DNA of 64,000 bases from Haloarcula salina. Its GTDB lineage: Archaea > Halobacteriota > Halobacteria > Halobacteriales > Haloarculaceae. The notes beneath the pieces were generated by a model. The model ran no database searches. It saw only the letters and a program-made list of their open reading frames with translations, and had not been told where the DNA came from. Where the stretch lies: positions 62,001-126,000 of the forward strand of contig NZ_WRXL01000003.1 of the NCBI RefSeq assembly GCF_010119195.1. Direction: 5' to 3'. Shown here piece after piece: positions 721-4,393 of this stretch. The position numbers and the translations under genes were made by a program. Positions within the stretch are counted from its first letter, which is position 1. Each line of letters starts with the position of its first letter.

Positions 721-1005
721 TACCGGGGTCGGTCACTGTCTCGGAACCGTTCCCGTGCAGTGTCCGGTCGCCGGCGGTACCGGCCGTCTACATCGAAACG
801 GATCGCGAAATCGAACCAGAGCAACACACCGTACATGGAGAACACCGCATTGGCAGACATGTCAGTTTACTTATCAAGACGGCACCCAGAGACCAGGTGG
901 GGAGAGCGGACACGGGGCAACGCAACCGACGGAGCGGCGGGCGCTTCGCGCCGGCCGTCTCGACACGATTCGGGCTGTTACGTGGCCCCTGGAGGGAACT
1001 GAGCG
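721..1005. other. Intergenic region with a candidate promoter
   Basis: I see no gene in this 285-base gap. A TATA-like stretch, TTTACTTATC at 866-875, could start transcription toward the metallophosphoesterase, which would give a leader of roughly 100 bases, long for a haloarchaeon. Confidence 0.35.
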
Positions 1006-2820
1006 ATGGACAGTAGTGCCGACCGAACGACGGGACGCACCGCGACGCGACGCGACCTCCTCAGGGCGGTGGGCGCGGGGGTCGGCGTCGCGACGCTCGG
1101 AGCCACACCGGGAGCGAGCCAGCAGTCGTCGTACTGGACCGTCGTCGCGCTGCCCGACACGCAGGTATACGCCAAAGACGACACGCCGTATGCGAACGAT
1201 CAGACCCAGTGGATCGTCGACAACCGCGACAGCGAGAACATCGCCTTCGTCAGCCACGAGGGCGACGTGGTCGACCACGGCGACGACGACGCGGAGTGGC
1301 AGTACATGGACGCGGCCATGTCGAAACTCGACGGCGTCGTTCCGTACTCGACCGTCCCCGGCAATCACGACTGGGCGACGCTGTGGGACAAAGAGTCCTC
1401 GATCGACAAGTACAAGCAGTACTTCGGGCCCTCCCGGTACGACGGGCGCGACTGGTACGGCGGTTCGGGGCCGACGGGCGTCGACGAGAACCGAGCGAAT
1501 CTCAACAGCTACCAGCTGTTCTCCGCCGGCGGCTACGACTTCCTCCACCTCGCGCTGGAGTGGGAGCCCGCGGGGTCGACCGACGATCCCTCGACGCCGC
1601 TGGGCTGGGGCCAACAGATACTCGACGAGCACCCCGACCGGGCGACGATTCTCACCACCCACTCGTACCTCCGTGACAATCCAGATCGCCGAGCGACGGA
1701 GCTCCAGGAGCCCAACGACATCGGGAACACCGGCCAGGCCGTCTGGGAGGAACTCGTCGCGCCGAACGAGCAGGTGTTCATGGTGCTGTGTGGCCACTGG
1801 CACGAGGAAGACGGGGAGGTCCACCAGGTCGCGACGAACGACGCGGGACAGGCCGTCTACGAGATGCTGGCGAACTACCAGTTCCGGCCGAACGGCGGCC
1901 ACGGGCTGATGCGCCGCATCAAGTTCGAACCGGGCGGCGGCAGTGACGGTGCCGACCGGATCGCCGTCCGGACGTTCTCGCCGAGCACGGACGAGGAACA
2001 GACGGACGGAGACAGCCAGTTCCACTTCGATCTGGACTTCGACGCCCGCTTCGGCGCCGAGTCGTCGACCGGCGAGCAGGTCGCGTTCGAGCAGGGAGCC
2101 GAGGGCTACGACGGCACGGTCGACACCATGCTCCGCGAGGCCGACCCCGAGACGGGCTTCGGAACGGCGACCACGCTGTCCATCGACCAGAGCGACCCGC
2201 AGGGAAGCGCCAATGGCAGTCAAGTCCTCCTGCGGTTCGACGGCGTCGTCGGCGACGGCGACGCGCAGGTCCCGCGGGGAGCGACCGTCGAGAGCGCGAC
2301 GCTGACCCTCGAAACTGCCGACGACGGCTCCGGCGCGTCCGTCCACCGCATGCTGACCGACTGGGGCCAGGACGACACGTGGGCGTCACTGGACGACGGC
2401 GTCCAGGCCGACGACACCGAAGCGGTCGACAGCGCCGACGCACAGACCGGAACCGTCGCCACCGGGACGACGCGCATCGACCTCGCGGCCAGCGTCCAGG
2501 CGTGGGCCGACGGGGCCCCGAATCACGGCTGGGTGTTCCTCCCCAGCGGCGGCGACGGCTGGGACATCCGGACGGCCGAGAGCGACGCGCCGCCGACGTT
2601 GCAGGTCCGCTATACGCCCCCCGACGAGAGTAGCGGTCCCGTCGCGGGCGACGCTGACGGCGACGGAGACGTCGATAGCGACGACGTGACGCGGATCCAG
2701 CAGTCCGTGGCCGGCGAGGACGTCGAGATCGACCGGGAAGCCGCGGACGTCGACGACGACGGAGACGTCGATATCGGCGACGCCGCCCGCGTCCGGAACA
2801 TGAGCGGGGGCGACTCGTGA
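1006..2820 (+). CDS. Tat-exported metallophosphoesterase with C-terminal dockerin
   Basis: This 604-residue protein is probably exported by the Tat pathway: twin Arg 15-16 precede a hydrophobic stretch ending near Ala-Ser-Gln 37-39. A calcineurin-like phosphoesterase domain follows: LPDTQ (49-53, Gln replacing the usual His), GDVVD (86-90), GNHDW (119-123), a later His in THSYLR, and the C-terminal GHWHE. Residues about 375-540 look like a DNRLRE-type beta-sandwich (segments such as WGQDDTWASL and VQAWADG). Residues about 546-602 form a type I dockerin with two calcium loops of the pattern D-x-D-x-D-G-D-V-D-x-x-D. The stop overlaps the start of the cohesin gene by 4 bases, so the two are very likely co-translated and physical partners. 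The substrate of the phosphoesterase is unknown. Confidence 0.88.
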   Translation: MDSSADRTTGRTATRRDLLRAVGAGVGVATLGATPGASQQSSYWTVVALPDTQVYAKDDTPYANDQTQWIVDNRDSENIAFVSHEGDVVDHGDDDAEWQYMDAAMSKLDGVVPYSTVPGNHDWATLWDKESSIDKYKQYFGPSRYDGRDWYGGSGPTGVDENRANLNSYQLFSAGGYDFLHLALEWEPAGSTDDPSTPLGWGQQILDEHPDRATILTTHSYLRDNPDRRATELQEPNDIGNTGQAVWEELVAPNEQVFMVLCGHWHEEDGEVHQVATNDAGQAVYEMLANYQFRPNGGHGLMRRIKFEPGGGSDGADRIAVRTFSPSTDEEQTDGDSQFHFDLDFDARFGAESSTGEQVAFEQGAEGYDGTVDTMLREADPETGFGTATTLSIDQSDPQGSANGSQVLLRFDGVVGDGDAQVPRGATVESATLTLETADDGSGASVHRMLTDWGQDDTWASLDDGVQADDTEAVDSADAQTGTVATGTTRIDLAASVQAWADGAPNHGWVFLPSGGDGWDIRTAESDAPPTLQVRYTPPDESSGPVAGDADGDGDVDSDDVTRIQQSVAGEDVEIDREAADVDDDGDVDIGDAARVRNMSGGDS

Positions 2821-4169
2821 GCGACACCACGCGGCTTCTCGCCGTCGGTGCCCTCGTCGCAGTGCTCGCGGCCCTCCCGCTCGCCGTCGCGACGGTCGGT
2901 GCGCTGCCGGCCCCGGCGATCGGCGTCGCCGAGAACCCAACTGCCGCACCCGGTGACACCGTCACCGTCTCGCCCGGCGAGACGACCACGCTGACGGTGT
3001 GGGCCAACGCGACCGCGGTGAGCGGCTACCAGACGAACCTCACCTTCGACCCCGAGGACGTGACGGTCGAATCGGTGTCCGGCAGCGACGACTTCGGCGA
3101 CCCGATCAGCAACGTGAACAACGAGGCAGGCTGGGCCGCGTTCAATCAGCTCCGCGGTTCCGAGACCGAGAACCCCGTCCTCGCGACGGTCACGCTGACG
3201 GGCACCGGCGAAGCGGGGTCGAGCACCGATCTCTCGTTCGTCGACGCCGACACCAAGTTCACGGACGCCGACGGCGAGACCGTCGCCCCGGAGACCCTCC
3301 ACGACGTGACGGTGACCGTCGAGTCCGAGACGACACCAACGCCGACGCAGACGCCTACTCCGACGCCGACGCAGACACCTACCGAGACACAGACGCCTAC
3401 CCCGACGCCGACCGAGACACCGACGCCTACCCCGACGCCGACCGAGACACCGACGCCGACCGAAACCCCGTCGGACGACAGCAACAGCGGCGGTGGTGGG
3501 GGCGGCGACAACGACGACAGTGACGATGACGACGACAACGGTGGCGGTGGTGGCGGCGGTGGCGGCGGTGGGGCCGGACCCCCCGATGAACCGGCGTTCA
3601 ACGTGACGAATGCGTCGCTCAACACCTCGTCGACCACCGTCGGAACCCCAGTGACGGTGTCGGCGACCGTCGAGAACACCGGCGACGACGACGGGACCTT
3701 CGACGCGTACGTGGCCGTCAACGGCAGCGCGGTCGGTGTGAACGAGTCGGTCGACATCGACGCCGGAGCGGAGAGAGCGATCAACCTCTCGGTCCTGTTC
3801 AACACGACCGGAACGCGCGCGCTCGCGTTCAACACGACGGCCGCCGGCAACGTGACCGTCCACGCGTCGCCCACGACGAACGGGACGAACGCGACAAACG
3901 CAACGAACGCGACCGTGACGCCGGCCGTCACGACGACGCCACCCCAGACAGAGACAGACGCTGCGACAGCAGGATCGACGACAGTGGCGGCGACGACTAC
4001 CTCACCGACCGACGACGGGACGGTCACCCAGGTCCCCGCCACGACCGATGCGGCCGCCAGTCCGACCGGAACGACCGGCGGCACCGGCGCCGGCTTCGGA
4101 GCGGCTACCGTCGCGCTGACGCTGTCGATACTGCTCGGCTGGCTCGCCATTCGGGAGCCGCCGAACTAA
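2817..4169 (+). CDS. Cohesin-domain surface protein with CARDB domain and C-terminal anchor
   Basis: The start is GTG at 2817, overlapping the upstream stop. Of 450 residues, about 1-36 are a Sec-type signal, and about 37-170 read as a cohesin fold (VSGYQTNLTFDPEDVTVES, later GWAAFNQLRG and VLATVTLTG are typical strand patterns). A Thr-Pro-rich linker, then a Gly/Asp-rich linker, lead into a CARDB-like domain (about 258-350, with TVENTGDDDGTFDAYVAVNG). After a Thr-rich, heavily N-glycosylatable stretch comes GAGFG plus one hydrophobic segment and a short tail, resembling a PGF-CTERM signal that lacks the Pro. The likely role is a surface scaffold that captures the dockerin enzyme encoded just upstream. 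Confidence 0.82.
   Translation: MSDTTRLLAVGALVAVLAALPLAVATVGALPAPAIGVAENPTAAPGDTVTVSPGETTTLTVWANATAVSGYQTNLTFDPEDVTVESVSGSDDFGDPISNVNNEAGWAAFNQLRGSETENPVLATVTLTGTGEAGSSTDLSFVDADTKFTDADGETVAPETLHDVTVTVESETTPTPTQTPTPTPTQTPTETQTPTPTPTETPTPTPTPTETPTPTETPSDDSNSGGGGGGDNDDSDDDDDNGGGGGGGGGGGAGPPDEPAFNVTNASLNTSSTTVGTPVTVSATVENTGDDDGTFDAYVAVNGSAVGVNESVDIDAGAERAINLSVLFNTTGTRALAFNTTAAGNVTVHASPTTNGTNATNATNATVTPAVTTTPPQTETDAATAGSTTVAATTTSPTDDGTVTQVPATTDAAASPTGTTGGTGAGFGAATVALTLSILLGWLAIREPPN
3391..3450 (+). repeat. Tandem 30-bp repeat inside the Thr-Pro linker
   Basis: Two adjacent 30-base units (3391-3420 and 3421-3450) differ only at their first base. They encode a Thr-Pro-Thr-Glu-type linker between the cohesin domain and the Gly-rich segment. 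Shorter degenerate copies flank them, so linker length probably changes by slippage. Confidence 0.85.
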
Positions 4170-4321: not shown

Positions 4322-4393
4322 TGGACTCGCCGGGATTTGAACCCGGGGCCTCTTCCTTGCGAAGGAAGCGATCTGCCACTGATCTACGAGCCC
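4322..4393 (-). tRNA. tRNA-Ala (anticodon CGC)
   Basis: A 72-base cloverleaf. The acceptor stem GGGCTCG pairs with CGAGTCC and includes the G3-U70 wobble that marks alanine tRNAs. The anticodon stem CTTCC/GGAAG encloses TTCGCAA, giving anticodon CGC. A T-arm with GGTTCAAATCC and discriminator A73 are present; CCA is not encoded. It lies downstream of rps10 with its own candidate promoter. Confidence 0.96.

Follow-up and report, generated by a model that had tools for sequence, protein, structure and literature searches.

A dockerin-bearing phosphoesterase and an anchored cohesin protein encoded by a conserved gene pair in Haloarcula salina: a putative one-to-one surface display unit

Gene organization and domain content of the pair

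The window analyzed, a stretch of 64,000 nucleotides from Haloarcula salina (contig NZ_WRXL01000003.1, positions 62,001 to 126,000), carries near its start two overlapping genes, the first encoding a phosphoesterase with a C-terminal dockerin and the second a protein with a cohesin domain (Table 1). A preliminary description of this DNA had placed both genes and their 4-base overlap correctly. Gene 2 is probably translationally coupled to gene 1 through this overlap. A scan of the locus for promoters and terminators, of a kind not built for archaea, returned nothing.

Table 1. Features of the dockerin/cohesin locus of H. salina and the second cassette of the same genome. Positions are those of the window unless stated otherwise.
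Feature	Position	Strand	Basis
Gene 1, putatively exported dockerin-bearing phosphoesterase	1006..2820	+	ORF, ATG start, 604 aa; domain matches
Gene 2, cohesin protein with putative anchor	2817..4169	+	ORF, GTG start, 450 aa; domain matches
GTGA stop/start overlap, 4 bases	2817..2820	+	-4 overlap also in most orthologous pairs
GGAGGG, putative Shine-Dalgarno-like motif 5' of gene 1	991..996	+	Sequence reading
tRNA-Ala(CGC), converging, cassette boundary	4322..4393	-	ARAGORN
Twin-arginine signal, gene 1 residues 14-38	1045..1119	+	TIGR01409
Calcineurin-like metallophosphoesterase domain, gene 1 residues 65-267	1198..1806	+	PF00149
DNRLRE domain, gene 1 residues 373-534	2122..2607	+	NF033679
Type I dockerin, gene 1 residues 547-598	2644..2799	+	PF00404
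Calcium loop 1, DADGDGDVDSDD, gene 1 residues 549-560	2650..2685	+	Sequence; orthologue alignment
Calcium loop 2, DVDDDGDVDIGD, gene 1 residues 581-592	2746..2781	+	Sequence; orthologue alignment
Gene 2 N-terminal hydrophobic signal peptide, Sec-like	2817..2912	+	Hydropathy
Gene 2 cohesin domain	2955..3320	+	PF00963, AF2 model, fold matches
Gene 2 linker, Thr/Pro, Asp and Gly-rich	3333..3590	+	Sequence
Gene 2 CARDB-like domain, borderline	3597..3842	+	PF07705
Gene 2 C-terminal transmembrane helix, degenerate PGF motif (GAGFG)	4089..4154	+	Hydropathy
Second cassette, PhoX phosphatase then signal-cohesin-anchor gene	L009:2935-6570, contig 1 of the same genome		Domain and profile comparison

The product of gene 1 has the marks of a Tat substrate: its twin-arginine signal scored 18.4 bits against a TIGR01409 cut-off of 16.7, and R15 and R16 were invariant in an alignment of 12 orthologues. 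Its assignment to the metallophosphoesterases was given both by the PF00149 match (E 6e-10) and by the conserved D, GD, GNHD, H and GHxH residues of the family, with D51, D87, N120, H121, H219, H264 and H266 invariant in the 12 orthologues. The DNRLRE domain (E 1.1e-14) had been overlooked in the preliminary description, and some orthologues lacking it still keep the dockerin and the cohesin.

The C-terminal module matched Dockerin_1 with an E-value of 2.6e-6 in the whole protein and of 7.8e-8 when the domain was scanned alone (32.8 bits, curated cut-off 22.9), and it contains the two 12-residue calcium loops of this family, spaced by 32 residues. No such spaced pair appeared in 5000 shuffles of the protein, and the ligand Asp columns of both loops were invariant in the 12 orthologues. 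Furthermore, a profile of the haloarchaeal dockerin family, compared with solved structures, matched the CelS dockerin at 2.4e-12. The earlier reading of two calcium loops spaced as in a type I dockerin was thus borne out. The two repeats differ at loop positions 10-11 (SD versus IG), an asymmetry that may point to one binding mode instead of the two available to symmetrical dockerins. AlphaFold gave a poor model of the whole protein (pLDDT 39), which was left unused.

In the product of gene 2, the cohesin was not listed by hmmscan of the whole Thr/Pro/Gly-rich protein, but residues 30-177 scanned alone passed the PF00963 cut-off (E 1.3e-7; 32.3 bits, cut-off 24.1), and the domain was also found, over the interval given in Table 1, in a six-frame genome search (31.8 bits). 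When a profile of 19 haloarchaeal cohesin sequences was compared with all solved structures, 17 of 17 matches were cellulosomal cohesins or scaffoldins (best E 3e-8). An AF2 model of the domain (pLDDT 74, pTM 0.72) had cohesin entries as 17 of its 20 best PDB fold matches, the Archaeoglobus fulgidus cohesin structure 2xdh standing at rank 20; identity to the cohesin structures was 12-19%. These results support, rather than prove, a cohesin beta-sandwich fold, since the model was built on two sequences and the TM scores were about 0.5-0.62. For residues 37-170, chosen beforehand for the cohesin check, the outcome was positive by Pfam, by solved-structure profile and by fold. The signal, linker and C-terminal anchor of the preliminary description were also recovered; its CARDB domain was borderline, with 22.6 bits just below the cut-off of 22.7. 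The protein contains 15 N-glycosylation sequons.

Regarding the anchor, no PGF_CTERM match was obtained in the profile scan of the gene 2 protein. Orthologues show PGF...RR tails by eye, with PGF-CTERM scores below the cut-off, and ArtA is encoded in the H. salina genome. The protein may be anchored by an archaeosortase or, with equal likelihood, by a simple transmembrane helix, because the tail of gene 2 is degenerate and unrecognised by the profile.

Association of dockerin and cohesin genes in the phosphoesterase family and in the H. salina genome

Searches covering as many as 391 haloarchaeal genomes yielded 30 members of the phosphoesterase family with a readable 3' side, including that of the window. 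A cohesin gene was observed directly 3' of all dockerin-bearing members (22/22, the window's included), mostly with the -4 overlap, and of none of the dockerin-less homologues (0/8); the Fisher value was about 2e-7, if the members are taken as independent. By this sequence comparison, the pairing of dockerin and cohesin genes is beyond chance, and the same gene pair, which the preliminary description had proposed to look for in other haloarchaea, was found there. The 22 members with the pair also ruled out a reading-frame artefact.

Four genomes (G081, G122, G508 and G524) each carry dockerin-bearing and dockerin-less members and constitute a within-genome control, and in G226, G122 and G171 the sole detected cohesin lies directly after the sole detected dockerin. 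On a phylogeny of the enzyme domain, the dockerin/cohesin combination undergoes three changes or more, and in two well-supported sister pairs one member has it and the other lacks it. Co-loss is nevertheless weaker evidence than it appears, because an adjoining dockerin and cohesin gene could be removed by one deletion, so that their gains and losses are to some extent linked. The phosphoesterase cassette of Halobaculum halobium shows the 4-base overlap, and its second gene is called "cohesin domain-containing protein" in RefSeq. A contig scan with a weak dockerin pattern gave one phosphoesterase orthologue, in Halobellus inordinatus, the other matches being bacterial dockerins. One dockerin-less homologue of genome G081 has another C-terminal module, LQLAINWWATETAVPNTGG...LTNMWATGATV (3' end of L054), in place of the dockerin.

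Additionally, a second dockerin/cohesin cassette was found in the H. salina genome itself, so that the "single pair" of the preliminary description was wrong at the level of the genome. Its enzyme is a Tat-type PhoX phosphatase with an internal cohesin-like domain and a divergent dockerin with loops DLNGNGRLDYED and DFNENGKLDFAD, and its second gene encodes a cohesin protein of 249 aa with signal and anchor. This cohesin was too divergent for a match in the Pfam or PDB profile searches, and its assignment rests on hhalign with the haloarchaeal cohesin profile (94.9%, E 4e-8). Of the 14 genomes listed for the genus, 12 carry this gene, which also occurs elsewhere in the family, in further genera; the order of the genes was read at 11 loci. 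Only two convincing dockerins were detected in the H. salina genome, each with its own adjoining cohesin, and the two pairs fall in divergent subfamilies.

Dockerin/cohesin pairs and their cargo across haloarchaea

The class survey covered 242 genomes, with two genomes holding large clusters left out, and considered pairs within 600 bases among the matches listed. Eighteen dockerin/cohesin gene pairs were obtained, from 18 genomes, 9 genera and 4 families, and in all of them (18/18; 0.05 expected) the cohesin gene was downstream on the same strand; related genomes are included, and the pairs therefore represent fewer than 18 independent events. The cargo in the pairs scanned consisted mostly of S8 subtilases, the exceptions being a beta-helix protein and a CBM-like protein. 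In the S8 cassette of Halomicrococcus gelatinilyticus, the second gene is again a "cohesin domain-containing protein" in RefSeq. The dockerin-then-cohesin order was also observed in genomes that appear to belong to the Archaeoglobi, and several surveyed genomes contained exactly one dockerin and one cohesin.

Most dockerin matches listed in the survey had no adjoining cohesin among the matches listed, so dockerins may also serve other roles. This observation agrees with an alternative in which the C-terminal dockerin module binds substrate or calcium and needs no cohesin, the adjoining cohesin protein being an unrelated surface protein; indeed, two haloarchaeal papers describe type I dockerins as substrate-binding (PMC10963439, PMC13260240). 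The cassette arrangement speaks against such a role, which is unlikely given the complete co-occurrence in the phosphoesterase family, absent from the dockerin-less homologues, and an order and strand that stay fixed across 9 genera with unrelated cargo.

Larger assemblies were also observed. Genome G207 (L076:5665-11925, minus strand, and L077) encodes a 2087-aa protein with 14 Pfam cohesin matches, in a cluster that also encodes several S8 proteases with dockerins and additional cohesin proteins, of which one has a PGF-CTERM anchor; from its gene content, this cluster looks like a proteolytic counterpart of the cellulosome. A similar cluster is present in genome G043 (L078, L079). Genome G002 (L075, L127, L128), of the same family and 2.7 Mb, had 49 dockerin matches and few cohesins, and is possibly a haloarchaeal multi-enzyme system. 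Genome G280 (L125:3395-9200, minus strand) has two adjoining genes, one for a protein that resembles GH5 cellulases and has a dockerin of the PhoX type, the other for a protein with a Tat signal that combines several cohesin-like repeats with a dockerin of its own. Other dockerin enzymes (L064, L066, L069 and others; 32 same-ORF combinations listed) have their own cohesin just ahead of the dockerin, where type II systems have the X module, an arrangement that could allow enzyme chaining.

Multi-cohesin scaffolds and dockerin-rich genomes of this kind are what would be expected if the domains bound mainly in trans, the cohesin protein serving as a shared dock or the contacts linking cells or building a multi-enzyme network. 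For the pair in the window this is improbable: the two convincing dockerins of its genome each adjoin their own cohesin, in pairs of divergent subfamilies, and genomes with just one dockerin and one cohesin exist. Finally, the gene 2 domain could be taken for an Ig-like domain of a generic adhesin, with no role as dockerin receptor, since the single sequence gave weak matches to HYDIN-like Ig domains and to antibodies, and beta-sandwich folds are alike. This reading is very improbable and already largely refuted by the score above the curated cohesin cut-off, the profile matches to cellulosomal cohesins and scaffoldins only, the predominance of cohesins among the best fold matches and the RefSeq name of the H. 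halobium counterpart.

Proposed function and comparison with known systems

The pair is real, conserved and functionally suggestive, and sequence comparison lends good support to reading it as a display unit in which one cohesin serves one dockerin enzyme. It is likely that the two-gene cassette retains the dockerin-bearing phosphoesterase at the cell surface via the anchored cohesin. The phosphoesterase would be exported by Tat, with a C-terminal module that the profile identifies as a calcium-binding type I dockerin, and gene 2 would provide a protein secreted by the Sec route, with one cohesin, a glycosylatable spacer and a C-terminal segment that would finally anchor it in the membrane. 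Outside the cell, the dockerin would bind the cohesin, as family biology and co-occurrence suggest, and with the enzyme held at the surface, the released phosphate or product would stay near the cell. Haloarchaea appear to apply the same logic to PhoX phosphatases and subtilases.

The surface display unit of the preliminary description thus gained comparative support from the family co-occurrence, the second cassette and the 18 same-order pairs, its singleness being the part that fell. The proposed split between a Tat-exported enzyme and a Sec-exported scaffold probably applies to the phosphoesterase and PhoX pairs, but not as a general rule, because many subtilase cassettes have Sec-like N-termini. 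A broader proposal, to which we give even chances, is that haloarchaea possess a general non-cellulosomal cohesin-dockerin system that keeps phosphatases, phosphoesterases and subtilases on the cell at molar salt, from one-to-one cassettes to anchored 14-cohesin scaffolds amid dockerin-bearing proteases.

Cohesin-dockerin docking is best known from bacterial cellulosomes, and the archaeal cohesins and dockerins have been termed enigmatic from their first sighting in Archaeoglobus onwards; Peer and colleagues reportedly surveyed non-cellulosomal modules in 2009. A conserved and oriented enzyme/anchor cassette suggests a concrete job for these archaeal domains beyond cellulose degradation and a route by which haloarchaea could retain exported enzymes. 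The protein pairs, perhaps functional in near-saturated salt, may be of use in biotechnology. No description of haloarchaeal enzyme/cohesin cassettes was found in the literature search, which covered mainly freely available papers, and earlier notice is possible.

As in bacterial cellulosomes, the dockerin is on the enzyme and the cohesin on a non-catalytic protein with an anchor. Nevertheless, cellulosomes join type I dockerin enzymes to multi-cohesin scaffoldins, whereas one cohesin and one enzyme are present here. No carbohydrate-binding module was found by domain scans in either protein of the pair, and the cargo is a phosphoesterase (PhoX in the second cassette), with no polysaccharide-degrading enzyme. 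A cellulosome was therefore ruled out on the side of both scaffold and cargo, in agreement with the preliminary description.

In the available text of two reports on ANME archaea, many dockerin and cohesin domains of unexplained role are described (PMC9012536, PMC5244752). They resemble the present case as archaeal, non-cellulosomal domains on extracellular proteins, and differ in that ANME have substrate-binding proteins with dockerins, and scaffold-like proteins in which as many as 5 cohesins occur; an adjoining one-to-one enzyme/anchor cassette is not described in that text. For Methanococcus maripaludis, it has been suggested that type II cohesins act as anchors of a secreted [NiFe]-hydrogenase (PMC11452385). 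Cohesin-bearing surface proteins would there also retain an extracellular enzyme, but glycan contacts were proposed and no dockerin is mentioned.

The closest known case is that of A. fulgidus, in which strong and specific binding was reported between the dockerin of ORF2375 (Doc 432-506) and the cohesin of ORF2376 (Coh 29-162) (PMC9705933). Those ORFs are consecutive, the first with a C-terminal dockerin and the second with a near-N-terminal cohesin, and the genes described here likewise adjoin on the same strand, dockerin first and cohesin second. In contrast to the A. fulgidus pair, the cargo is here an identifiable phosphoesterase with a Tat signal, the cohesin protein is longer, with a linker, a CARDB-like domain and a putative C-terminal anchor, and the gene order is widely conserved in haloarchaea across several enzyme classes.
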